NCBI GenBank assembly: GCA_017552435.1
Contig: JAFZPZ010000089.1
Coordinates: forward strand, 1-64,000
Direction of reading: 5' to 3'
DNA from: Bacteroidaceae bacterium
GTDB taxonomy: Bacteria; Bacteroidota; Bacteroidia; Bacteroidales; Bacteroidaceae
Length of the DNA: 64,000 nucleotides
The position numbers and the translations under genes were made by a program. Below, in pieces: positions 1 to 16,950 of this stretch. Below the pieces are notes generated by a model, which was given only the letters and a program-made list of their open reading frames with translations, was not told where the DNA came from and ran no database searches. Each line of letters starts with the position of its first letter. Positions within the stretch are counted from its first letter, which is position 1.

Positions 1-219
1 GCTACATCGGGTGGCCATTCCCGCTTGTAAAGTGAAGAGTGAAGAGTTAAGAGTGAAGATTTTTAGGATTGGCTACGCCCTCCGGATGGCGGTTGCGACT
101 CCCTGAATCGGCTCTTTTATCCTCTCTCTTTTACACTGCAAAGTTACGACTTTTTTCTCAAATATGCAAGGATTTAGGCAATTATTTTTAAAGTTTTTCT
201 TTAATATTTTTCGTGCACA

Positions 220-268
220 AATAACCTGCCCTTATTTGCGGATAAAGACAGGTTATTGGGCAATAAGG
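220..268. repeat. Nested inverted repeats
   Basis: AATAACCTG at 220-228 pairs with CAGGTTATT at 249-257, and CCTTATT at 230-236 pairs with AATAAGG at 262-268. The two pairings interleave, so they cannot form together as one simple hairpin. This could be a terminator remnant, a regulatory palindrome or a recombination site; nothing else decides. Confidence 0.4.
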
Positions 269-330
269 TTGGGTTATTTTCCCGGCAGGTGTCGGTTCGT
301 GGGCGGCGGGGGATTTGTGTGAGATGTCAG

Positions 331-357
331 AAAATTGCAAAATTGCAAATTGCGTCC
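331..357 (+). repeat. 27-bp repeat, copy A
   Basis: A 27-bp sequence built from aaaattgc-type units and ending in gcgtcc. Its exact reverse complement is at 492-518, and a copy with one mismatch in the same orientation is at 8347-8373, just after the helicase gene. The three copies bracket the restriction-modification and primase-helicase genes. Confidence 0.8.
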
Positions 358-491
358 TGTTTTTCTAAGCGTGGAATATGAAGGAGATAGGAAATTAGAT
401 AGAATTATAATATAAATAATTATATATTAATAAGTTATATAAAATATTATACATATTTTAACATTCTTCTTTTCTCCACCTCCAAAAATGT

Positions 492-525
492 GGACGCAAT
501 TTGCAATTTTGCAATTTTTGCGTCC
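492..525 (-). repeat. 27-bp repeat, inverted copy B
   Basis: Positions 492-518 are the perfect reverse complement of 331-357. A short palindrome is also present: GGACGCAA at 492-499 pairs with TTGCGTCC at 518-525. The copy ends about 8 bp before the -33 box of the restriction-modification gene. Together with 8347-8373 it forms an inverted pair around 519-8346. Confidence 0.8.
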
Positions 526-532
526 ATTATAT

Positions 533-563
533 TTTGTAGGTTGAAAGAAAAGTTGTAACTTTG
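533..563 (+). promoter_or_regulatory. Promoter of the MmeI-like gene
   Basis: TTTG at 533-536, a 19-nt spacer and TAACTTTG at 556-563 match the Bacteroidetes -33/-7 consensus. The start codon follows 21 nt later. The promoter lies inside the bracketed module, directly after inverted repeat copy B. Confidence 0.75.
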
Positions 564-584
564 TCCCCAAACTAACGGCAAATT

Positions 585-3509
585 ATGAAAACCGAGAAAC
601 AGATGGCTGCTGCGGCAGCGGAGTTTGCGCAGAGATGGAAAGGGCGTGGATACGAGAAGGGTGACTCGCAGCCTTTCTGGATTGACCTACTGGCGAATGT
701 CTTTGGCGTAGAAAATGTCACAGAGTTCATCCGCTACGAGGAGCAGGTGAAGGTGGATGCCACCAACTTCATCGACGGGCACATCAGTTCCACCCGCGTA
801 CTTATTGAACAGAAGTCCATAGACAAAGATCTGCGCGCTCCCATTACGCAGAGCGACGGCCAGCGACTCACGCCTTTCCAGCAGGGCAAGCGCTATTCTG
901 CCGAGTTGCCTTATTCCCAGAGGCCGCGCTGGATTGTGACCTGCAACTTCCGGGAGTTCCTGGTCTATGACATGGAACAGCCCAACGGCGAGCCCGAAAG
1001 CATATTGCTGGAGAACCTCGGTAAGGAGTACTACCGCCTTCAATTCCTTGTGGACGTTAAGAGCGAACACCTCAGAAAAGAGATGGAGGTCTCCATGCAG
1101 GCGGGCGAGATAGTGGGGAAGATATACGAATCCCTGCTTGCGCAATATGATGACGACAGCCCCGAGGCTCTGCGCTGGCTCAACATTCTGTGCGTGCGCA
1201 TTGTGTTCTGCCTTTATGCCGAGGATGCAGGCGTGTTCTTGCACGACCAGTTCCACGACTATCTGAACCGTTACGAAGCCGACGATTTGCGCAATGCGCT
1301 GATGCGTCTCTTCAATGTACTGAACACTCCACAGGAAAAGCGCAGCAAGTACTTGCAACCGGAGTTGGCCGCTTTCCCTTATACCAATGGCGGACTATTT
1401 GAAGAAGAAATAGAAATCCCACAATTCACCGAGGAACTGAAGCAGACACTCTTGCAGAACGCAAGTCTTGACTTCGACTGGAGCGAAATATCGCCCACCA
1501 TCTTCGGCGCCGTATTCGAGAGCACCTTGAACCCTGAGACGCGCAGAAGCGGCGGCATGCACTATACCAGTATAGAGAACATCCATAAGGTCATCGACCC
1601 GCTGTTCCTGAACGACCTGCGCCGCGAGCTGGACAATATCCTCGAAGAGACGGTAGAGAAGCAGCGGCAGAAGAAACTCGATGCCTATCAGGAGAAGTTG
1701 GCGAGCCTCACGTTCCTCGACCCTGCTTGTGGCAGTGGCAATTTCCTTACCGAGACCTACCTGAGCTTGCGCCGCTTGGAGAACGAAGCCATCAGCGCCC
1801 GTTATCACGGTCAAGCATTCCTGGGCTTCGAGGAAGTGAACCCCATCAAGGTCAGCATCCAGCAGTTCTACGGCATCGAGATAAACGACTTTGCCGTTAC
1901 CGTTGCTACTACTGCCCTCTGGATCAGCGAAGCCCAAATGCTCCGCGAGACAGAGCGCATCATCCGCCACGACATCGACTTCCTCCCGCTGAAGAGCTAC
2001 CCAAACATCCGCGAAGGAAATGCACTGAGAATGGATTGGGACATTATTGAGGTACCATCGAATGTTCCCACCATTCATGCAAAGAATGTCCATCTGATTG
2101 TTGAGCCGGAAACATTGAAGGTTAGTGAGCCTGTTGTGGAATATGATGAAGTAAATGTGGTGACTAAACATTTTGATGGTAATGCCCAACCCGACGTGCA
2201 ACGCTATGAGGTGCATTTCAACTACATCATGGGTAACCCGCCGTTCGTGGGATATTCTTTCCAGAGCAAGGAACAGAAAGAAGATATCTTGAGGCTATTT
2301 GTCGATAAGTATGGCAAAACCACCAAGACTGCAGGCAAGATAGATTATGTGGCTGGCTGGTATTATAAAGCCGCTCAATTGATGAAACATTCCAAGGATA
2401 CCCGTGCAGCACTTGTTTCTACAAACAGCATTACTCAAGGAGAACAGGTGGCTGCCATTTGGAAGCCTTTGAAAGAATTGTTTGGCATTCACATAGACTT
2501 TGCTTATCGCACATTCCGATGGGATAGTGAAGCTTCGCTGAAAGCACATGTACATTGCGTGATTGTGGGGTTCAGTAATGTGAATACATCGAAATACATT
2601 TTTGATGATAAAACAAAAAAGGAAGCAATCAATATCAACGCATATCTTATCGATGCACCGGATGTTTACATAGATAGTAGGAAGACACCACTTTCCGACG
2701 TGCCAGAAATAATAACAGGAAACAGACCTGCTGATGGTGGGAATCTGATTATTGAAGCAGAGGATTATGCGGAGTTCATCAAGCGAGAGCCATCTGCAAT
2801 ACCATATATAAAAAAGTTGTTAGGAGCTGCAGAATTTATTAACAACAAAGATAGATGGTGCTTATGGTTAGTTGGGGCATCACCTGCAGAACTTCGTAAA
2901 ATGCCATTGGTTATGGCGAGAATCCGTGCTTGTAAAGCAGACAGGGAGAATGCGCCTGATGAAGGAAGAAGGAAACTTGCAGCGACTCCACATTTATTTA
3001 GAGAACAAATCAATCCGCAAACCTACATTATTGTACCTTCGGTGTCCTCAGAGCGCAGGCGCTATGTTCCGATGGGTTTCCTCAAAGCAGACACCATACC
3101 AACAAACCTTGTCCTTATTATCCCCGATGCTACATTATACCACTTTGGTATTCTAGAAAGTAATGTCCACATGGCTTGGATGAGGGCTGTTTGTGGAAGA
3201 TTGGAAATGCGTTATAGATACTCTAAAGACGTTGTATACAACAACTTCCCTTGGCCAAATCCTACGGAAGAGCAGAAGCAGAAGATAGAGCAAACAGCAC
3301 AAGCCATCTTGGATGCACGAGCCCTCTATCCCGACTCCTCCCTTGCCGACCTCTACGACGAAGCAGCAATGCCACCAGCATTACGCAAAGCACACCAGGA
3401 CAATGACCGGGCTGTGATGCAAGCCTACGGATTCCCCATTAAGCGAGACCTCCAAGAAAGTTACTATGTCGCAGAACTATTCAAATTGTACCAGGAACTG
3501 ACGAAATGA
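585..3509 (+). CDS. Fused type IIG/IIL restriction-modification enzyme, MmeI-like
   Basis: A single 974-aa chain predicted to cut DNA and to methylate adenine at N6. The N-terminal part has a PD-(D/E)XK nuclease signature: D64 followed by E75-Q-K77, the spacing seen in MmeI. A helical region follows. The gamma-class adenine methyltransferase domain carries DPACGSG at 379-385 (SAM-binding motif I) and NPPF at 551-554 (catalytic motif IV). The C-terminal third should be the target-recognition domain. Length fits MmeI-family enzymes (about 900-1000 aa), which need no separate restriction or specificity subunit; host protection comes from methylating one strand. All key residues seen are intact. 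Its stop overlaps the next start (ATGA). The target sequence cannot be read from the protein. An older label for such proteins is class I SAM-dependent DNA methyltransferase. Confidence 0.9.
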   Translation: MKTEKQMAAAAAEFAQRWKGRGYEKGDSQPFWIDLLANVFGVENVTEFIRYEEQVKVDATNFIDGHISSTRVLIEQKSIDKDLRAPITQSDGQRLTPFQQGKRYSAELPYSQRPRWIVTCNFREFLVYDMEQPNGEPESILLENLGKEYYRLQFLVDVKSEHLRKEMEVSMQAGEIVGKIYESLLAQYDDDSPEALRWLNILCVRIVFCLYAEDAGVFLHDQFHDYLNRYEADDLRNALMRLFNVLNTPQEKRSKYLQPELAAFPYTNGGLFEEEIEIPQFTEELKQTLLQNASLDFDWSEISPTIFGAVFESTLNPETRRSGGMHYTSIENIHKVIDPLFLNDLRRELDNILEETVEKQRQKKLDAYQEKLASLTFLDPACGSGNFLTETYLSLRRLENEAISARYHGQAFLGFEEVNPIKVSIQQFYGIEINDFAVTVATTALWISEAQMLRETERIIRHDIDFLPLKSYPNIREGNALRMDWDIIEVPSNVPTIHAKNVHLIVEPETLKVSEPVVEYDEVNVVTKHFDGNAQPDVQRYEVHFNYIMGNPPFVGYSFQSKEQKEDILRLFVDKYGKTTKTAGKIDYVAGWYYKAAQLMKHSKDTRAALVSTNSITQGEQVAAIWKPLKELFGIHIDFAYRTFRWDSEASLKAHVHCVIVGFSNVNTSKYIFDDKTKKEAININAYLIDAPDVYIDSRKTPLSDVPEIITGNRPADGGNLIIEAEDYAEFIKREPSAIPYIKKLLGAAEFINNKDRWCLWLVGASPAELRKMPLVMARIRACKADRENAPDEGRRKLAATPHLFREQINPQTYIIVPSVSSERRRYVPMGFLKADTIPTNLVLIIPDATLYHFGILESNVHMAWMRAVCGRLEMRYRYSKDVVYNNFPWPNPTEEQKQKIEQTAQAILDARALYPDSSLADLYDEAAMPPALRKAHQDNDRAVMQAYGFPIKRDLQESYYVAELFKLYQELTK

Positions 3510-4948
3510 GAAACACATCAGAACATTCATTTCCTGTTTTATATGCAGGAGGATTTATTCAAAAGGCAGATAGGGTTATATCTGTTATCAAAAACATAGA
3601 CCTAAGTAAAGCTGTAAGTACTCGGCTCATGTCGGCTGCCGCATGTATAGAGGTAGCAGAATTCAATGAGTGTTTGGAAGCGACACGAGAATCAGAGCAA
3701 ATAATCTATACAGGTAGCCTCCTACAATGCACCCCTTCCCTGGAAACTTACATTAAGCGTTTCAAAGAAGCGAAGGAGTTATTACACCATTCAGAAGACC
3801 CTGAAGCTATATGGACAGAAAAGATGAGTATCATCTGTTATAGAGGAGAACCTGAAGCTTCAGCCCATATTATCAGAGAAAAACGAACGAAAGCACAGAA
3901 AAGGGACATTAAGACACTCGAATGTGTAAAGGAACATCATACTGTGCAAAGAATGCAACATGAAGAAGATGAACAATTCATTGACTCCTTTGTGATTAAT
4001 GGAGAATTATATAAAAAAGCAGATTTTGTAGAATTAGAAAGGGAGCATATTGATTATGGCGCATATATTGATACTTGGGCAACAGGAATTAAAACAAACA
4101 TATCTGACCACATTTATATTCTTTCAAATCAAATAGATGACACCATTAGTGAGATATCATATCTAAACAATATCATAAATAACCCTAGAATAGATGCATT
4201 GGCAAAAGGATTGGAGCAAATGTATCTCAGTTATTTGTCTCTTTACTGGATAGAAGAACAGGCTAAAATAGAACTTAAAATAGAATTACTTTTGAGAGAA
4301 TATGACGAGGAAGACACAGAAGGAATAACTCATGCACTCCTAAATTTTTACAAGGAGTTGAAAGAAAAAGAAAAGCCTGACAATCAAGATGATTGTTTTG
4401 TGCAATTATGGCATAAACATCTGTCGAAGAATAAAACTCCTGAGAATTACCTCTCATTAGCAAAAGCCATGCTCTTTAATTGGAACACCTATATAGCTTT
4501 TTTTAAAGACGGGTTACTTCTCCGTTGTTTTTATGAAATCCAAATGGATGAATATATAAGCTACGAATTGAGAGATTTGCGTAAGGCTCAAAAGCATAAA
4601 GCAAAGGATTCTAAAGGAAAACTCACAGACGTTCTCAATACGGAATTAGCAAGAGATATATTTGCCGAGTGTCTCAAGAAAGGTTGGATGCATGAAACAG
4701 AAAACGGATATCATTGGGAAGGCATCCCTGAAATACGTGGCAGAGTAGCTCAACTTGTCTACCTTTGTGGCAAGATATATGGATTCAAGTATAGTGACAA
4801 GCTGGGACGAAATGTTGGAGCAGCATTCCCCGATTCTGAGCTGTGTAAACTATTCAATGTGAAGGATATGGAGAAACAACTCGTCCAAGTATATCAAGCG
4901 GTAAATAAGCAAATATGGAGAGCTATAATAGACAAGCTTTTTGAATAG
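3506..4948 (+). CDS. Unknown 480-aa protein coupled to the restriction-modification enzyme
   Basis: I do not recognise the family. The start overlaps the stop of the preceding gene by 4 nt (ATGA), which implies translational coupling. The chain is hydrophilic and largely helical, with charged coiled-coil-like stretches around residues 95-170 and 195-300 and no signal peptide or membrane segment. The last 100 or so residues (from about DVLNTELAR) resemble a C-terminal module I recall from Bacteroides accessory proteins, including the pattern LFNVKDMEKQ; this is a weak impression. A strong terminator follows at once, so it is the last gene of a two-gene operon. Codon use looks more AT-rich than in the flanking genes, consistent with recent acquisition. 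It may be an accessory defence effector or a modulator of the enzyme; no function can be assigned. Confidence 0.8.
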   Translation: MRNTSEHSFPVLYAGGFIQKADRVISVIKNIDLSKAVSTRLMSAAACIEVAEFNECLEATRESEQIIYTGSLLQCTPSLETYIKRFKEAKELLHHSEDPEAIWTEKMSIICYRGEPEASAHIIREKRTKAQKRDIKTLECVKEHHTVQRMQHEEDEQFIDSFVINGELYKKADFVELEREHIDYGAYIDTWATGIKTNISDHIYILSNQIDDTISEISYLNNIINNPRIDALAKGLEQMYLSYLSLYWIEEQAKIELKIELLLREYDEEDTEGITHALLNFYKELKEKEKPDNQDDCFVQLWHKHLSKNKTPENYLSLAKAMLFNWNTYIAFFKDGLLLRCFYEIQMDEYISYELRDLRKAQKHKAKDSKGKLTDVLNTELARDIFAECLKKGWMHETENGYHWEGIPEIRGRVAQLVYLCGKIYGFKYSDKLGRNVGAAFPDSELCKLFNVKDMEKQLVQVYQAVNKQIWRAIIDKLFE

Positions 4949-4975
4949 AGACACCTGTTTTGGTGTCTTTTTTTA
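4949..4975 (+). terminator. Intrinsic terminator of the restriction-modification operon
   Basis: AGACACC at 4949-4955 pairs with GGTGTCT at 4962-4968, followed by a long T tract that continues as repeated T-runs to about 5000. It starts one base after the stop codon. Confidence 0.85.
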
Positions 4976-5036
4976 TCTTTTTTTTTATCTTTTTTTATCC
5001 CGATATATTCTTCATAAATCAATATCAGGCATTTCG

Positions 5037-5072
5037 TACCTTTGCAGCGTCATTCAGAAATGAGTGGCGCTG
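5037..5072 (+). promoter_or_regulatory. Promoter and 5' leader hairpin of the primase-helicase operon
   Basis: A -7 box TACCTTTG lies at 5037-5044; no good -33 TTTG is seen. The transcript would begin almost directly with an imperfect hairpin: CAGCG at 5045-5049 pairs with CGCTG at 5068-5072, with CATT/AATG inside. The start codon is 34 nt downstream. The hairpin could affect stability or translation. Confidence 0.5.
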
Positions 5073-5106
5073 ATCTCGTTATTAACATATATATAATAAT
5101 AAAGGT

Positions 5107-5622
5107 ATGGTTACAACAGACAACACAAAGTACCTGGCTCGACCAAAAGGGAAGCCAGATGTGACAACAAAGGGAAAGATGAACGAATGGTCGAATGGCT
5201 ACAAGGAATTTATTCCGCAAGGCTCGAAGCCAAGTAACAGAACTATGCTCAAGCAACTGGGCAACTCCAGCTTCTACAAATCGGAGGGTGAAAAGGAATC
5301 CAGCTATTCTCTGCACCTCAATGTGGACGCTAAGGACTGCGCCGACCCCGTGGGAGCATTGTATGAGCAATTCCTCAACCTTACAGAAAACGAGCGCAAG
5401 GAGATGCCACAACTGCCAGAAGGCTCTGAAGGTCGCATGCTCTACGACAACGGATCGTCCCTGAAGGTATGGCACGACACGGCACGAGGCGAGGTCTGCA
5501 TCCTCACACGCCTTCAATGCTCGCCACAGATAGAGCGCGAACTGCTACAGGCACAGGCCACGATGAACGTCACACTGGGACGCTACCGCACAGAAATCAT
5601 TAACGACAATAATAATAAATAA
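5107..5622 (+). CDS. Hypothetical 171-aa protein, first gene of the primase-helicase cassette
   Basis: Not recognised. The protein is soluble and polar, with no signal peptide. The C-terminal half, from about residue 60, reads as a compact alpha/beta domain (SYSLHLNVDA, then RGEVCILTRLQC). The ATG at 5107 follows an aaaggt stretch. The gene ends 4 nt before the primase gene, so the three genes to 8344 form one operon. By position it may be a small DNA-binding or accessory replication protein; this is inference only. Confidence 0.7.
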   Translation: MVTTDNTKYLARPKGKPDVTTKGKMNEWSNGYKEFIPQGSKPSNRTMLKQLGNSSFYKSEGEKESSYSLHLNVDAKDCADPVGALYEQFLNLTENERKEMPQLPEGSEGRMLYDNGSSLKVWHDTARGEVCILTRLQCSPQIERELLQAQATMNVTLGRYRTEIINDNNNK

Positions 5623-5626
5623 TGTT

Positions 5627-6322
5627 ATGGAACAGAACTATCGTTTTTGTTATCAAGAGAATCAGTATTGGGGCGAGTGCATGCCTTGCACCCCCACATT
5701 GTTTAACCATGCCATCGACAGCCAGGATGTTGCCTACAAGATTGGTATGCGTCAGGCTGTGGAGAAAGCCATCCGCGATGGGCAGCCTCTCGATAGCTTC
5801 ACAATGGAGAAGGAGTTTGTCCGCTTCTGCACAAAAAAGCAGGGTGAGAAATCCTTCGAGGATTTGACCCTTGCAGAGAAGCTGTTGCAGTGGACGAACT
5901 CGCTGAAGAACTTACTTCCATGCTTCATCTTTGCCGTGAAGGACTTTGAAAGCACTCGCCGCAAGCAACCCGAGATTCAGCATCTGAGCGGACTCTTCAT
6001 GTTCGACGCAGACCACCTGCTTTGCGCCCCCTACGAGATATTCAAGCGCACGCAGGTGCCCGGGTTCCCTTGGAAGGTGCCGTTTGCACACAATACATCC
6101 TCTGGCCATGGTCTCAGGCTCGTCTGCGAGGCGCGTCCGGAGCTTGGCAATATTGCCGACAACCAGATCTGCCTGGCTCGCGACCTCGGACTCATGGGCA
6201 TGAAGGGTAGCACAGGCAAGCCCGTCGTGGATGACTCGTGCATCGATGCTACAAGAATCTCATACTGTCCCCGCCGTGAGGACATCTACTACATTGACGA
6301 AAACAAATTGTTTAATTTTTAA
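5627..6322 (+). CDS. BT4734-like archaeo-eukaryotic primase-family protein (VirE N-terminal type)
   Basis: A 231-aa protein with the three catalytic signatures of archaeo-eukaryotic primases in order: hDhD in LFMFDADHL (D127, D129), sxH in SSGHGLRL (S159, H161), and hD in CIDATRISY (D207). The last domain is followed by CPRREDIYY. This is the BT4734/BF3469 clade common in Bacteroidales, usually placed before a DUF3987 helicase, as here (13-nt gap). It probably makes RNA or DNA primers, or did so in a mobile element. All metal-binding positions look intact. A cellular role is not established for chromosomal copies. Confidence 0.8.
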   Translation: MEQNYRFCYQENQYWGECMPCTPTLFNHAIDSQDVAYKIGMRQAVEKAIRDGQPLDSFTMEKEFVRFCTKKQGEKSFEDLTLAEKLLQWTNSLKNLLPCFIFAVKDFESTRRKQPEIQHLSGLFMFDADHLLCAPYEIFKRTQVPGFPWKVPFAHNTSSGHGLRLVCEARPELGNIADNQICLARDLGLMGMKGSTGKPVVDDSCIDATRISYCPRREDIYYIDENKLFNF

Positions 6323-6334
6323 ATAATCACTATT

Positions 6335-8344
6335 ATGGCTAATTTATTTAATTTTTGCGACTTCGACGAGAAGTTCGCAGCTGAGTACCAACAGGGTAAC
6401 ACTCAGCCCACAAATCCTGCCAACGTGTTCGACAGCGAGACTGCCGATGCTGGCACAATAACTAACCCCTCAGCTACAGCTGCCAAGGAATTGGCGAGCC
6501 AAGTGGCTCCAACACCCTCGGCCTTGCAGCCAAAGGAGTTGACGGATGAAGAGATGGAGGCACTGCTGACAGTGTTCGGTCATTCCATCTTGGACTTCAT
6601 CAACACCATGTATCCCCATGGTGCGCCGGTGAATACACGTCACAAGAGCGCCCTGAAGTTGGCCAGCGACCTCATGATTCTGCTCGACGGCGACGAACGG
6701 CTGGTGAAGCATGTATTGCTGAAGCAGACATGGGTGCAAGACGTCATCAAGGAGCGTGGCGCAAAGGAGATTGATGATATCATCGATTCCGCCAAGAAAC
6801 AGCTGAAGAAACGCGAGAGTGAGTCACTCAGCGACCTTCGCCCGTCAAAGGAGATGCAGCGCGCCATAGAAACTGTTGTGAAGCGTAAATACACACAGAT
6901 AGTGGCCGAAGCACGTGCCCAGCAGACAGGTGGCAAACTGGTTGGCGGCGAAGACATCGTTGCGACCCTGGACCGCATGGGCCGCAAGGTGGAGAAGTTC
7001 TTCAAGTACTACCCTCTGTTGCGCCTGATGTGTCACGGTCTGCAGCGCAAGCACTACATCGCTGCGCTCTTCGTTGGCGGCGCGTTCTGCATGAACCTTA
7101 TGACGAGGATGTGGTACAGCTTCTGGCCGGCTCCAGGCAAGAAATGCAGGATGAACCACCTTTTGGAACTCATCGGTCGCCAAGGCTCCGGCAAGCGCTT
7201 CGCCGTCACACTCTATGAGATTCTGATGGAGCCCATCAAGAAGGCAGATCAGGTACAGATTAATGCCCTCAACAACTGGAAGGCAGAGCGTTCACAGAAC
7301 AATGGCGCTGCCAAGAACAAGACCCCAGAACCCAAGGGTATCTACCGTTGTCTGCCATCTGAGTCCTCGGCTGCAGGTGTCAGGGATGCCGAGGTTAACG
7401 CCAAGGAAATCATCGACGGCGAGGAGTGGTATCTCCATGTCAGCCAGTTCGACAGCGAGTTGCAGAATACACTCAGCCAGCTGCAGAAGGGCTATTTCTC
7501 TGCTCTCTACACCCTTTGGCTCAAAGGCTTCCACAACGAGCCTCACGGCGCGCTGCTGAAGTCAGCTACAAGCATCGTAGGTGAGTGGCCTGTACATTAC
7601 AACGTGGTCTATACGGGCACGAAACATGCCTTGGACAAACAGGTGAACATTACCAACTATGCTACGGGCCTGAACGGACGTATCACCGCGGTTCCCATGG
7701 GCGATAGCAATTTCGAGATGATGGAGAATCGCGAATACACCGATGAAGACCGTCAGCGGGATGTTGAGCTCACAGAATGGGCGTACAAGTTGGATGCCAC
7801 AAAGGGCGAAATCCCCTGCAAGGACATCAGCGATGCCTTGCATGACTGGACAGAGCGTCGCATGGACGATGCACGGGAGAATCAGTCCCTGGCAGACGAA
7901 GACCTACTGAAGCGTCCCTGCTGGCATGGCATCAACTATGCATTGCCCTACATCATTGCCCGACACTGGGACGAGATGGTGGACGAGGGTGGACGGTTCG
8001 TCTGCGGTGCAGGCTTTCAGACAGATAAGATTGACCGCGAACTGGCCTTGCTCATCTGCAACGCACAATATACCTTCCAGCAGCATTTCTTCGGCGCTAT
8101 TGCCGAGCAGCACTACGAAAACTCTCAGACGTTGGAAGCTTCGAAACACCGTATGCAGCAGAAGACGCTATTGTCTTATCTGCGTCTGCCAAATCCCTTT
8201 ACAAGCAAAGATGTGGATATTTGCTACGGCTATGAAGGTGTGAAGGGCAGTATCACCAGCCGCATCAAACACCTGCAAGACGACGGTCTTGCCCAAAAGA
8301 TTCGTTCAGGAGAAGACAAGGGCAAGTATCGCAAGTTGGTTTAG
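6335..8344 (+). CDS. DUF3987-family ATPase/helicase partner of the primase
   Basis: A 669-aa protein. Residues 1-130 are low-complexity and alpha-helical; a helical region follows to about 240; the ATPase core starts near residue 275. The P-loop is GRQGSGK at 281-287, but it is followed by R instead of the usual S/T. The C-terminal 70 residues (from about QKTLLSYLRL) look like a winged helix: DVDICYGYEGVKGSITSRIKHLQDDGL. Members of this family sit beside BT4734-like primases in Bacteroidetes and resemble helicases of plasmids and phages. The gene ends 2 bp before the third copy of the 27-bp repeat, making it the right end of the module. Confidence 0.75.
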   Translation: MANLFNFCDFDEKFAAEYQQGNTQPTNPANVFDSETADAGTITNPSATAAKELASQVAPTPSALQPKELTDEEMEALLTVFGHSILDFINTMYPHGAPVNTRHKSALKLASDLMILLDGDERLVKHVLLKQTWVQDVIKERGAKEIDDIIDSAKKQLKKRESESLSDLRPSKEMQRAIETVVKRKYTQIVAEARAQQTGGKLVGGEDIVATLDRMGRKVEKFFKYYPLLRLMCHGLQRKHYIAALFVGGAFCMNLMTRMWYSFWPAPGKKCRMNHLLELIGRQGSGKRFAVTLYEILMEPIKKADQVQINALNNWKAERSQNNGAAKNKTPEPKGIYRCLPSESSAAGVRDAEVNAKEIIDGEEWYLHVSQFDSELQNTLSQLQKGYFSALYTLWLKGFHNEPHGALLKSATSIVGEWPVHYNVVYTGTKHALDKQVNITNYATGLNGRITAVPMGDSNFEMMENREYTDEDRQRDVELTEWAYKLDATKGEIPCKDISDALHDWTERRMDDARENQSLADEDLLKRPCWHGINYALPYIIARHWDEMVDEGGRFVCGAGFQTDKIDRELALLICNAQYTFQQHFFGAIAEQHYENSQTLEASKHRMQQKTLLSYLRLPNPFTSKDVDICYGYEGVKGSITSRIKHLQDDGLAQKIRSGEDKGKYRKLV

Positions 8345-8346
8345 AC

Positions 8347-8385
8347 AAAATTGCAAAATTGCAAATTGCATCCACTTTTTTGTGG
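8347..8385 (+). repeat. 27-bp repeat, copy C, with adjoining palindrome
   Basis: Positions 8347-8373 match 331-357 with one mismatch (gcatcc for gcgtcc). The match to the reverse complement of copy B continues outward for roughly 10 more bases with gaps. CCAC at 8372-8375 pairs with GTGG at 8382-8385. It begins 2 nt after the helicase stop codon. Confidence 0.75.
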
Positions 8386-8510
8386 TTTGGCATTAACATC
8401 ATCCGCTACTCCGACGTGCTCCGGCACTACAATGCCGCCTTGGTTCTAAAGAATCCAAGAACGAGTAGAAAGGTCTTTGAGAAATAGCCAGACAAACCAT
8501 CAATAACAAG

Positions 8511-8545
8511 CGAAGGGGAACGGTCAGCTCCCCTTCGGTTTTTTT
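8511..8545. terminator. Terminator between the helicase and the toxin gene
   Basis: CGAAGGGGA at 8511-8519 pairs with TCCCCTTCG at 8529-8537, followed by a T tract at 8539-8545 on the plus strand. It lies between convergent genes and could also serve leftward transcription, though the A-rich side there is weaker. Confidence 0.8.
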
Positions 8546-8858
8546 ATTCTTTCACCTGGGCTGCCAAAGCATCTGGTTCACGCCTCACATCCCAGAAGTC
8601 AACCACTTCAATATGATCGTCTGCAATATGATAAATCATCTTGTTTAATTTGGTGACGACCACACTACGATATATTCTAGGGCAATCTGACAGAAGTGGT
8701 TCTACTGGTCCCAAACGGGGATTGTTTTCAAGATATTGTCGCACCTCTTGCACCTTGTGTATGAAATTGTCCCTGTATTTCCTGCCAAACTCCATCTGGA
8801 TATATCTGGCAGTTTCGCGAATTTGTTGCTTTGCAAAACCAGTAATAGTTACTTTCAT
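8544..8858 (-). CDS. RelE/ParE-family toxin
   Basis: A 104-aa protein of the RelE/ParE fold: an N-terminal helical hairpin (FAKQQIRETARYIQMEFG), then a beta-sheet core with the usual RSVVVTKLNKMIYHI strand and the C-terminal DFWDVRREP motif. Members are ribosome-dependent mRNA endonucleases (RelE) or gyrase inhibitors (ParE); this sequence is closer in style to ParE/plasmid-stabilisation proteins. Its start overlaps the end of the upstream antitoxin gene by 4 nt, the standard type II arrangement. It should be neutralised by the 90-aa protein and co-regulated with it. Confidence 0.85.
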   Translation of the reverse strand: MKVTITGFAKQQIRETARYIQMEFGRKYRDNFIHKVQEVRQYLENNPRLGPVEPLLSDCPRIYRSVVVTKLNKMIYHIADDHIEVVDFWDVRREPDALAAQVKE

Positions 8859-9127
8859 ACTGCCTTTGCTAATTCTCGTGCGTCTTCGTCTGCAAACTCT
8901 TCTTCCAACTCACGCATCACATCATCGAAATCATATACGCGTCCCTCGGCAATGTCAAGTTCGGACTGTGCAATTCTTGCATGAAGTTCCTCCTTTGTGT
9001 AGGGCTTCAATCTGTCTTCAGAACCTCGCAAATGGCTTTTCATTTCTTCCATCAACCACATCATGTCTGCAGGAGAAAGCGTGCCATAAAGATAGTCGCG
9101 AAGATTTGTCAATGTTGCAGTACTCAT
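8855..9127 (-). CDS. Antitoxin of the RelE/ParE-type pair
   Basis: A 90-aa acidic protein placed first in the operon, as expected for an antitoxin. The N-terminal part (LRDYLYGTLSPADMMWLMEEM) is a predicted helical DNA-binding or dimerisation segment; the C-terminal part (VMRELEEEFADEDA) is an acidic helix likely to wrap the toxin. Its promoter shares 43 identical bases with that of the orphan antitoxin at 22180, so the two loci may have a common regulatory origin. Confidence 0.8.
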   Translation of the reverse strand: MSTATLTNLRDYLYGTLSPADMMWLMEEMKSHLRGSEDRLKPYTKEELHARIAQSELDIAEGRVYDFDDVMRELEEEFADEDARELAKAV

Positions 9128-9136
9128 ATTCTCACT

Positions 9137-9186
9137 TTTTTCTTGTTTTCTGCCGCAAAGTTACGATTAAGCGAGCACAATACAAA
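9137..9186 (-). promoter_or_regulatory. Promoter of the toxin-antitoxin operon, shared block
   Basis: On the minus strand TTTG (plus 9183-9186), a 19-nt spacer and TAACTTTG (plus 9156-9163) make a perfect consensus. Plus-strand 9137-9179 is the exact reverse complement of 22126-22168 (43 of 43), covering the spacer, the -7 box and the leader. Confidence 0.85.
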
Positions 9187-9203
9187 ACAAAAAGCACTTT
9201 TAT

Positions 9204-9234
9204 TTTGCTGGAAACAATACTTTTTATATCTTTG
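9204..9234 (+). promoter_or_regulatory. Promoter of the nitroreductase gene
   Basis: TTTG at 9204-9207, 19 nt, TATCTTTG at 9227-9234. It is divergent from the toxin-antitoxin promoter and only 17 bp away, so the two may interfere. Confidence 0.8.
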
Positions 9235-9295
9235 TAGCAACACGCGGATAATCTATTGAATATAGTATCATAAACTTTGGCTTAAAGAGACGACA

Positions 9296-9982
9296 ATGAC
9301 AATACAAGAAGCTATTATTTCCCGCCACAGCGTGCGGCAGTATCTCGACAAACCAATCGAGACTGAGAAAATCGAACGGTTGCAGGATTTCATTGCGGAA
9401 TGCAACCGCAAGGGGAATCTCCATATTCAGCTGGTTACCAATGAACCCAACGCTTTTTCGGGCGGATTGGCCAAGTACGGCAAGTTTTCGGGCATCAGAA
9501 ATTATATCGCTATGATTGGCAAGAAGGGTGACGATACTACGCTCGGTTATTACGGCGAGCAAGTTGTGTTGCTGGCACAAACACTCGGGCTGAATACCTG
9601 TTGGGTGGGACTTACCTACCGCAAGCAGCCCGACAAATACGAGGTGCTGGATGGTGAGAAACTGGTTTGCGTAGTAGCACTCGGCTACGGCGTAACACAA
9701 GGCGTACAGCATCCTCAGAAAAAAGACAATAAGGCCTATTGCAAAGACGCCCGCAAAGATTCGGAATGCTTCCCCGAATGGTTCGTGAACGGTATGCAAG
9801 CGGCGTTGTTGGCACCGACAGCTATCAATCAGCAGAAATTCGAGTTCATTTTACACGACGGCAACAAAGTGGAGGCTAAGACTCGCTTCACGATATTGAA
9901 TAGCTATGCGCCTATTGACTTGGGGATTGCCAAGTGCCATTTTGAGATTGGCGCAGGAAAAGACGTTTTCGAATGGGTCTAA
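9296..9982 (+). CDS. Nitroreductase-family FMN oxidoreductase
   Basis: A 228-aa cytoplasmic flavoprotein. The N-terminus ISRHSVRQYLDKPI is the FMN-phosphate-binding signature of the nitroreductase family (R-S/H-x-R-x-Y/F). Residues 75-105 (YGEQVVLLAQTLGLNTCWVG) are the dimer-interface helix and active-site edge. The last third (LLAPTAINQQKFEF) repeats the family's APTAxNxQ pattern. Members reduce nitro compounds, quinones or flavins with NAD(P)H; the true substrate cannot be inferred. It converges on, and overlaps by 4 nt, the symporter gene. Confidence 0.88.
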   Translation: MTIQEAIISRHSVRQYLDKPIETEKIERLQDFIAECNRKGNLHIQLVTNEPNAFSGGLAKYGKFSGIRNYIAMIGKKGDDTTLGYYGEQVVLLAQTLGLNTCWVGLTYRKQPDKYEVLDGEKLVCVVALGYGVTQGVQHPQKKDNKAYCKDARKDSECFPEWFVNGMQAALLAPTAINQQKFEFILHDGNKVEAKTRFTILNSYAPIDLGIAKCHFEIGAGKDVFEWV

Positions 9983-15081: not shown

Positions 15082-16950
15082 ATGAGACAGACGGCCAGTT
15101 CCCAAGTCAGCCTGATCTTTTCCTTCCTCATTATATTTATATGCACGGTATGCAGAGGTGAGGAGTTGGTGTATTTGAACCTGCGCCACTTGAACCAGGT
15201 GGATTATGCCGACAGCGCTGCAGTTCTTGCTATGTGGGACGAGCTGCATGCTGCCAGTACGCTGCAGGGCATCGTGAACCGCAAGAAGCCGCGCCTCTAT
15301 GTGGATTACGTCGTAAATGGGCAGAAGGCAATAGACGCGCATTGGTGGCGTCTCTATCGGCGCAAGGGGGAATGGCTTTCGGGGCGCGACACGCTGACTC
15401 TTTTCTCTGTCGAAGAGGCTGTGGCACATTTCTCTGGGGAACTGCGAGGCGTGGTAGCCTACGACTCGCATGTGCCCTCGACAAGCAATGTCGCTTCGGC
15501 TGTCGCTGGTATCGAGAATCTGGTAGCCGTAAGATATGACAAAGCGCCGGGCTCGCTCTATAGCCGTCTATGTCTCTCAGAGCCCAAACTTCCTGTGCGC
15601 GTATGGCTGGTTCGGGAAGACGGTACACCGCTCTTCACGGGCGAAGGCACCCTGCCAGGCTGTAAACGGGCATCTTCTGGTTCCGTGAAATGCGACCCTT
15701 ATCTGTGGTTCATTGAACAATACATGAAGACAGGACGCTGCCCTGCTCGCTGTGCCGGATACTATCCTGACCAGATGTGGCGCTCGATGCCATCACGTGT
15801 TAATTGCAATCATCATCAACTCACGAACCACGACTTCTTTGTGAGCCGGAAGGGTTTCTTCTTCGACCTCTCACCATGGGGCGATGAACCTGCTACCGAC
15901 GATCCCTCACAACCCTTGGGCGCCGACCTGCGTACGCTGCAGGAATTGCTACATACCGCCGATAGTTTGGGGAAGGGTGAAAAGATGTGTCATATCGGAG
16001 GCTTCCCTGCATGGGCCTTCAAGTACACGCAACGCGTGGGAGGAAAACACGAGGATGTAGCCACCGAATGGCAGTTCTCCGAGCTCATCAGCCACTACAA
16101 TGCCTTCAAGGATGCCGATGCGATAGACCTTGGAGCACAGGCCAATGCCTCCTTCTGGCAACACTTTCCGCTGCGCAAGCGCTATCCCCAATCGTGGGTC
16201 AAAAGGAAAGACCTGCAGGCACGTGGCCTGTTGGACTCAGAGGGCAGGGTAGATACTACGCGCAAATATATTATCATATATGTTGGCGACTATGATGCAG
16301 CATCGTGGCTAAGCCAGATGACTCCCCTCCTGTGGGATGCACAGGAAAGGGGTGTGTCGCCCATGATGTGGTGCATCAGTCCCGTTCTTGCAGAACGTGT
16401 GCCTCATGTTATGCATTACATACGCCAGACAGCCTCGCCGCTCGACTACTTTGCTGCTGCCGATAACGGGGCCGGCTACATGATGCCAGGTACAGCCGAA
16501 GCGCAAGACCTTGCAGAAGGTACTACGCGCCATATCGACGCGTGGGAAGCTCACTGCAAGAAGTTCTATCGCCAGTGGGGACTCACAGTCACAGGCTTTG
16601 TCATCGACGGCAATGGTCCTGCAATGGGAAAGCGTTCGCTTGATGCATACGCCCGATTCAGTCCCAACGGTATCGTGCCTCAGAAGTGCGAACCTGCATC
16701 CCTGTATGGCCAGATGCCCGTGTTGCGTTCCGACTGGGACCTTGTCTCCAACGACCCCCACGAAGCGGCTCAAGTGCTCGTGGACCGCATACACCAATGT
16801 CAGATTCCTTTTCATTGGTCGCGCTGCATCCTGAAGAGTCCCGCTTGGTATAACGAAGTGGTACGTGAGGCCTGCCGTCTGGAACCCTCCATCCAACTGC
16901 TCGATGCGCCCACCTTTTTCACGCTGCTGCGTTGCTGGCTGCAAGAGTGA
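15082..16950 (+). CDS. GxGYxYP-family secreted protein (putative glycoside hydrolase)
   Basis: A 622-aa protein with an N-terminal signal peptide (VSLIFSFLIIFICTVCRG). The first domain (LYVDYVVNGQKAIDAHWW) and the central region match the GxGYxYP group, which is named for its motif; here the motif reads GAGYMMP (about residues 466-472). The family is annotated as putative glycoside hydrolase, but activity is largely uncharacterised. I chose the ATG at 15082 because it is followed directly by a signal peptide; the same frame is open further upstream but that part lies inside the proline-catabolism gene. It is 31 nt after that gene and 54 nt before a GH2 enzyme. Confidence 0.75.
   Translation: MRQTASSQVSLIFSFLIIFICTVCRGEELVYLNLRHLNQVDYADSAAVLAMWDELHAASTLQGIVNRKKPRLYVDYVVNGQKAIDAHWWRLYRRKGEWLSGRDTLTLFSVEEAVAHFSGELRGVVAYDSHVPSTSNVASAVAGIENLVAVRYDKAPGSLYSRLCLSEPKLPVRVWLVREDGTPLFTGEGTLPGCKRASSGSVKCDPYLWFIEQYMKTGRCPARCAGYYPDQMWRSMPSRVNCNHHQLTNHDFFVSRKGFFFDLSPWGDEPATDDPSQPLGADLRTLQELLHTADSLGKGEKMCHIGGFPAWAFKYTQRVGGKHEDVATEWQFSELISHYNAFKDADAIDLGAQANASFWQHFPLRKRYPQSWVKRKDLQARGLLDSEGRVDTTRKYIIIYVGDYDAASWLSQMTPLLWDAQERGVSPMMWCISPVLAERVPHVMHYIRQTASPLDYFAAADNGAGYMMPGTAEAQDLAEGTTRHIDAWEAHCKKFYRQWGLTVTGFVIDGNGPAMGKRSLDAYARFSPNGIVPQKCEPASLYGQMPVLRSDWDLVSNDPHEAAQVLVDRIHQCQIPFHWSRCILKSPAWYNEVVREACRLEPSIQLLDAPTFFTLLRCWLQE

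Follow-up and report, generated by a model that had tools for sequence, protein, structure and literature searches.

Inverted iteron-like arrays around a DUF3987 helicase-primase operon with exchangeable cargo in Bacteroidaceae: a probable chromosomal replicon module

The window analysed here is a 64,000-nt stretch of a Bacteroidaceae bacterium (GenBank assembly GCA_017552435.1), namely positions 1-64,000 of contig C115 (68,929 bases) in a 3.5-Mb assembly. Near its left end, a primase-helicase operon and a restriction-modification cargo are bracketed by copies of one short repeat, which a first-pass annotation of the sequence had placed at 331-357 (repeat A, + strand), 492-518 (repeat B, - strand) and 8347-8373 (repeat C, + strand). 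Direct reading and a repeat search returned all three copies at these coordinates and on these strands, A and B being identical over 27 nt and C carrying one change. The gene content between B and C was likewise as annotated, with an MmeI-like enzyme, a coupled 480-aa open reading frame (ORF) and an operon of three primase-helicase genes. A gap of 2 nt separates C from the stop codon of the last gene (6335-8344), and B lies 22 nt ahead of the first promoter, which we take to be a Bacteroidota-type cargo promoter (TTG-N-TAACTTTG at 541-563, +). A Pfam scan of the 8 proteins encoded in 585-9982, covering the bracket and the DNA just to its right, found neither an integrase nor a transposase, in agreement with the annotation. 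The window lies at the very start of its contig, so whatever adjoins A on the left is truncated at position 1.

The similarity of the repeats extends past 27 nt (91% over 34 nt for A/B, 94% over 36 nt for B/C and 91% over 34 nt for A/C), and each is built of short tandem 7-8-mers (TTGCAAAA TTGCAAA TTGC) followed by a T-tract. In their full extent, A (331..364, +) is an iteron array (TTGCAAAA/TTGCAAA/TTGC) with its T-tract, B (485..518, -) an inverted array with an A/T-tract, and C (8347..8380, +) a third array with a T-tract directly downstream of the helicase gene. Searching the whole 3.5-Mb assembly for a 23-mer core of the repeat with at most 3 mismatches gave three places only, which are A, B and C, against 1 match for the backward control pattern; the repeats are thus far beyond chance, and the random genome-wide occurrence that would, according to the first-pass annotation, count against its own proposal is not what the assembly contains.

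Going beyond that annotation, A and B themselves form a unit, as left and right halves of an origin-like structure in which the two inverted arrays face one another across an AT-rich core (358..491, 79% AT). Within the core, G exceeds C in the left part and C exceeds G in the right part. Positions 400-459, a candidate DNA-unwinding element, are the least stable 60-mer of the window (dG -52.2 kcal/mol; next segment -59.1, mean -85.2, sd 6.35 kcal/mol). The A-B core was also the least stable 60-mer of the locus in 23/23 relatives (triad score <=4), a result that is partly built in because triad detection required at least 62% AT between the arms. Across 13 aligned A-B units the core is conserved and the arms co-vary, 13/24 pairs having changed on both sides (0/500 shuffles; 1-5 pairs in slid controls). 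Two iteron sets around an AT-rich region, the origin layout of phage-inducible chromosomal islands (PICIs) and Staphylococcus aureus pathogenicity islands (SaPIs), are therefore a feature of the A-B unit, which by likeness to this published layout would be a replication origin.

The operon opens with orf171 (5107..5622, +), a small conserved protein that occurs in 28/40 loci, is 55-72% identical in 9 other loci and has no family match in Pfam, PADLOC, NCBIfam or PHROGs. It is followed by a BT4734-like/VirE_N primase-type protein of 231 aa (5627..6322, +; Pfam BT4734-like_N, E 1.1e-6; PADLOC PrimPol, E 6.3e-7) with conserved motifs FMFDxDH, SSGxGLRL and DDSCID, which we take to be those of archaeo-eukaryotic primases (AEPs). 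The last gene (6335..8344, +) encodes a DUF3987-type MCM-like AAA+ helicase of 669 aa, the proposed initiator, whose structure model has an MCM-type AAA+ core and a winged helix at aa 609-669 (nt 8159-8341). A sequence search of the PDB with the helicase and the primase gave no significant match, whereas the fold search did give a result. An MCM-like helicase gene followed at once by short repeats, a feature of staphylococcal cassette chromosome (SCC) elements, is thus present here by fold and position, and the C-terminal winged helix may, by analogy, be the iteron reader.

The first-pass annotation had asked whether the same repeats frame other primase-helicase cassettes with different cargo, and this layout was indeed seen in related genomes. 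At E <=0.001, helicase matches occur in 77/139 genomes of the genus, and many of these matches are weak and distant. Of the close relatives fetched, L052, L053, L054, L055, L056 and L057 have the complete triad of A-B, cargo, operon and C, as does the window; L048 has B and C on a contig that stops inside A-B, B is weak in L058, and L049, L050, L059 and L027 have C and no upstream match on their short contigs. The order is shared (A-B, cargo, orf171-primase-helicase, C), and the arrays agree within each locus and differ between loci. A strict triad test, applied to the 34 close-clade loci with 2.2 kb or more of upstream DNA, was positive in 25/34, against 0/34 for the reversed control, and triads with score <=1 arose in 13/34 loci tested with their own arrays versus 71/1326 swapped combinations. 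Across the 84,980 species of the GTDB collection, 428 helicase relatives were detected and the top 80 retained; their titles are mostly Bacteroidaceae, Bacteroidales, Prevotellaceae or Prevotella metagenome assemblies. Ranked against random windows, the tandem array after the helicase stop codon reached the 5th percentile or lower in 36/40 distant and 19/41 close-clade loci; for the 20th percentile the counts were 37/40 and 37/41.

In the second, distant clade the same design is built from other arrays, for example CTCACAAA or GCGACAAA. Only 4/40 loci of this clade (L163, L165, L184 and L191) gave a triad within 10 kb; the A-B unit lies ~7 kb from the third array in the triad of genome G088 and ~15 kb from it in Prevotella ne3005. 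With a distant-clade protein at E 1e-30 as query against 119 genomes spread evenly over the order, 2 gave a hit, one of them being the genome of the window. The window's own genome holds a second triad, with TTTCCCAC arrays at C65:269(+), 479(-) and 15832(+), the third array lying 22 nt past the stop codon of a distant helicase and the A-B core being 75% AT. Its iterons are unrelated to those of A, B and C in the window, and a covariance model built from 13 A-B units picked up its A-B unit unprompted (E 0.004). An additional unit bearing a TTTCCCAC array lies at C46:5431. By eye, a C5-methyltransferase-like gene and two glycosidase-like genes lie between the C65 arrays (L325, 269-15860). Related glycoside-hydrolase-like genes stand beside A-B units of three different iterons in three genomes (L105, L120, L325), which may reflect a hotspot, cargo or vertical inheritance. 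Also by eye, several distant-clade loci (L036, L043, L066, L164, L325) have a peptidase gene or a lysozyme-like gene behind the helicase or its array, and antirepressor-like genes (L327) lend this clade a satellite-like flavour.

The cargo of the window consists of an MmeI-like fused type IIG/IIL restriction enzyme-methyltransferase of 974 aa (585..3509, +) and a protein of 480 aa (3506..4948, +) translationally coupled to it by a 4-nt overlap. In the former, all five MmeI Pfam domains (N-terminal, helical spacer, methyltransferase, target recognition and C-terminal) are above cut-off, and PADLOC assigns REase_MTase_IIG with 1143 bits; the latter has no family in Pfam, PADLOC or NCBIfam and no PHROGs match better than E 0.08. 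Across 40 close-clade loci the cargo families were MmeI (8/40), F3 (12/40) and F4 (9/40). MmeI itself mostly occurs elsewhere: 20 of 30 MmeI loci fetched from the genus have no upstream A-B unit, a strong or contig-cut unit precedes the gene in 5/30 (L329, L338, L340, L342, L347), and 5 more have weak or short matches. Judged by these gene contents, MmeI is an exchangeable cargo of the module.

At E <=0.01 the covariance model matched 78/139 genomes, and a part of these matches is weak or false; the weak-score R1 matches are mixed, and the one in G000:C34 resembles a hairpin repeat rather than an A-B unit. In 18/20 further strong A-B sites, the fetched DNA held no match to the module genes of the window. 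Exceptions among these 18 are L119, where a distant helicase and, at 16826, a third array are present, and L103, which is at the start of its contig and whose genome encodes the helicase on a different one. Genome G073 has four dispersed A-B copies of 214-215 bp whose homology stops at the outer iterons; two of the four share flanks as well, and one reaches a contig end. In G015 a solitary copy matches the unit of that genome's element in 119/120 aligned nt before the flanks diverge. Whatever the route, the A-B unit disperses in chromosomes. In the isolate Prevotella ne3005, island 1 has B and C 14.8 kb apart and an HU gene on its left, and copy 2 has the same A-B unit (211 nt), ~170 bp, a C array, the same kind of downstream peptidase gene and an HU gene on the left. 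Homology between the two copies includes the HU gene beyond A and the peptidase gene beyond C. We also observed that, of the two copies (together L164/L232-L235), one is without cargo and helicase between B and C.

HU-like genes of one family flank 18/40 close-clade loci, nine on each side, all pointing away from the unit at 62-1956 bp; a nineteenth, weaker one (L134) points towards it. Three tested members match HU-HIG (PF18291). Among the compared groups, flank homology is mostly limited to the HU gene and its upstream region, so that this gene seems part of the island rather than a fixed host site, and since the HU-HIG genes are found beyond A..C, the island does not end at the repeats. In the window, 131..193 (-) is 81% identical over 63 nt to DNA just upstream of the L159 HU-HIG gene and contains a -7-like TAACTTTG on the minus strand; it appears to be where a leftward gene, lost beyond the start of the contig, has its promoter, and by this similarity that gene is probably an HU-HIG gene. 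The first-pass annotation had read the repeats as the boundary of a mobile or modular unit. The modular part of this proposal holds, as the operon and its matching repeats recur with different cargo, MmeI among them; B and C as edges do not, given that A stands opposite B in the triads and that HU and peptidase homology runs past the repeats. It had also suggested a search for empty sites and target-site duplications; no empty site was found in the leuA neighbourhood or at the right flank of the window, and no target-site duplication was seen by eye at the four G073 copies, for which empty sites were not available. Two islands (L155, L158) adjoin leuA and a third (L135) lies a few kb from it. 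The relatives of the nitroreductase on the right flank of the window (52-60% identity in the genus, one 44%) are too distant to give a junction. Any excision or transfer of the island is an inference.

Repeat anatomy and helicase fold together point to replication iterons and an origin, and the repeats are best read as initiator-binding iteron arrays rather than transposon ends. We therefore consider it probable that the locus is a chromosomal replicon module, with a DUF3987 MCM-like initiator, an A-B origin, a third array C and exchangeable cargo. In such a module the 669-aa helicase would be a self-loading initiator binding the iterons through its C-terminal winged helix. It would load on the A and B arms, the AT core would melt, the BT4734-type primase (5627-6322) would prime, probably assisted by orf171, and forks would go both ways. 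C would also bind the initiator, as a third array; lacking a melting core, it would be half an origin, which may serve as a regulatory or second loading site and may pair or loop with A-B, so controlling firing. The slot between origin and operon would hold swappable cargo, here the MmeI enzyme and its partner gene, and the island would reach past the repeats to the HU-HIG gene and the toxin-antitoxin-like genes on the right. Replication by the module, origin activity and the role of C are proposed here by analogy with characterised replicons.

Terminal inverted repeats would be another way to understand these sequences, A-B being a miniature inverted-repeat transposable element (MITE), B-C its autonomous counterpart and the enzyme acting in trans. 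B and C are indeed inverted and 94% alike over 36 nt, the homology of the four G073 copies ends at their outer iterons, where a MITE would have its sharp ends (two of the copies share flanks and one runs to a contig end), and the solitary G015 copy runs for 119/120 nt before its flanks diverge. Such an element would, however, be expected to carry C in the other orientation relative to A, and it leaves the presence of A alongside B in the triads found, the HU-HIG and peptidase homology between copies beyond the repeats, the conservation of the AT core and the MCM-type helicase without an account; moreover, there is no transposase among the 8 window proteins scanned and no target duplication by eye at the four G073 copies. 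We regard this explanation as unlikely. We give a lower probability still to the arrays being operators, bound by the helicase winged helix or another regulator for transcription control without replication: the position of B just ahead of the cargo promoter at 541-563, and of A-B between two divergent promoter-like sites, would suit it, whereas it does not account for a third array behind the terminal gene, for so extremely unstable a core or for the co-occurrence of primase and helicase. Finally, 27-nt inverted repeats 134 nt apart ahead of a restriction-modification gene in a Bacteroidota genome recall an invertible promoter for phase variation of the restriction enzyme. This we rejected as highly improbable, since inspection by eye revealed no promoter consensus in the AT core and since C is present as a third array; the promoter lies outside the core at 541-563, no recombinase is present among the scanned proteins, and the unit also occurs without restriction-modification genes.

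Several results weigh against the replicon module. A-B units with no module gene nearby are not explained by a pure origin. The strict triad test failed in 9/34 loci: L121 stops inside A-B, L127, L147, L150 and L153 have looser triads only, and L137, L143, L146 and L156 have none. At the loosest setting, matches across loci were frequent (426/1326 swapped combinations), because many iterons resemble TTGCAA, and under half of the close-clade downstream arrays (19/41) reach the 5th percentile. Co-variation of the iterons with the helicase C-terminus beyond overall divergence was weak (partial r 0.16, p 0.024; 32/41 loci usable), and iterons of helicase and unit matched in 8/24 pairs within a genome versus 164/1401 between genomes; these counts include the rows of L119, whose array was misplaced there and which should be disregarded. 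No homologue was found in plasmid and phage collections at E 1e-5, and 2 only in IMG/VR. Looking for an empty site by leuA, we found 18 relatives without a helicase, primase or orf171 match in ~0.7-11 kb of upstream DNA; no exact junction was recovered, as gene order upstream of leuA is variable.

Further features lie around the bracket. To its right in the window are two small overlapping genes (8544..9127, -; from the ORF list, with no Pfam match above cut-off), which by eye we assume to be toxin-antitoxin-like. To the left of A, locus L148 has genes for an EcoRI-type methylase and a GmrSD/HNH protein, with relatives in L130 and L155. The contigs of the window (1-330), L051, L057 and L064 all start ~300-450 bp left of A, which suggests repeats or strain variation there. 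A Y1/RAYT-like protein was seen by eye in or beside 2/40 islands (L130, 3222-4451; L125, 5468-6562), the L125 copy being without a Pfam match.

More broadly, and as a tentative proposal that we think is rather doubtful, these loci could be recombinase-free chromosomal replicons of rumen Prevotella in which each element has its own fast-changing iteron code read by a DUF3987 MCM-like initiator, defence cargo is delivered by local over-replication, solitary A-B units seeded in the chromosome as orphan origins can be fired in trans by the resident initiator, and capture of replicated DNA, instead of an integrase, moves the island. Local copy number would then have a new source of change in orphan origins scattered over chromosomes. 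For the BT4734/VirE_N plus DUF3987 genes, which are abundant (428 helicase relatives in one genome scan) and uncharacterised, the module offers a testable function, and it would be a case of a PICI/SCC-type replicon that carries restriction systems with no visible integrase. Its natural variants of iteron, origin and initiator are material for the study of initiator-iteron specificity and possibly for a toolkit of compatible plasmids for Prevotella.

Among known systems, the iteron sequences of SaPIs are element-specific, the Cch helicase of SCC has an MCM-like fold, and the phage P4 primase-helicase alpha acts on 8-bp iterons at two distant sites, ori1 and crr. PICI origins are described as two iteron sets around an AT-rich region next to rep, in a source that also mentions P4 alpha and its cognate ori (PMC6092414), and the initiator helicases of SaPIs and SCC are described as reading iterons directly downstream of their own gene through the C-terminal domain (PMC7581432). 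The window resembles PICIs and SaPIs in having a primase and an initiator helicase, iterons around an AT-rich origin, iterons 3' of the helicase gene and accessory cargo, as far as these two sources describe them (PMC6092414, PMC7581432). Unlike them, it has a two-sided A-B upstream of the cargo, 5.8 kb ahead of the helicase start, with a single array C after the helicase; it has no integrase among the 8 proteins of 585-9982, the left side being cut by the contig start, and no phage or plasmid relatives in the collections searched. With SCC/SCCmec (Cch/Cch2, MP, CCPol) it shares the set of small protein, primase/polymerase and helicase with iterons downstream; there these iterons are bound by the helicase C-terminal domain (PMC7581432), and here the C-terminus is modelled as winged-helix-like. 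In contrast to SCC, no ccr recombinase is present among the 8 proteins scanned, the helicase is of the DUF3987 family, the primase is of BT4734 type and the putative origin has inverted arrays around an AT core. Phage P4 differs in helicase family and in the phage context that is lacking here. Closest in protein class are the Bacteroidota VirE/DUF3987 clusters and AEP-associated mobile genetic elements, in which DUF3987 and VirE ATPase domains are predicted to be helicases and C-terminal winged helices of related proteins are proposed to read origins; the terms 'iteron' and 'inverted repeats' are absent from the main text of that source (PMC5862659). In the titles and abstracts of the open PMC literature nothing was found on this bracket, which does not establish its absence in print. 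As the integrase, recombinase and gene-order features of PICIs and SCC were not found as far as tested, while primase, helicase, iterons and cargo were, the module would be a variant of the PICI/SCC replicons.

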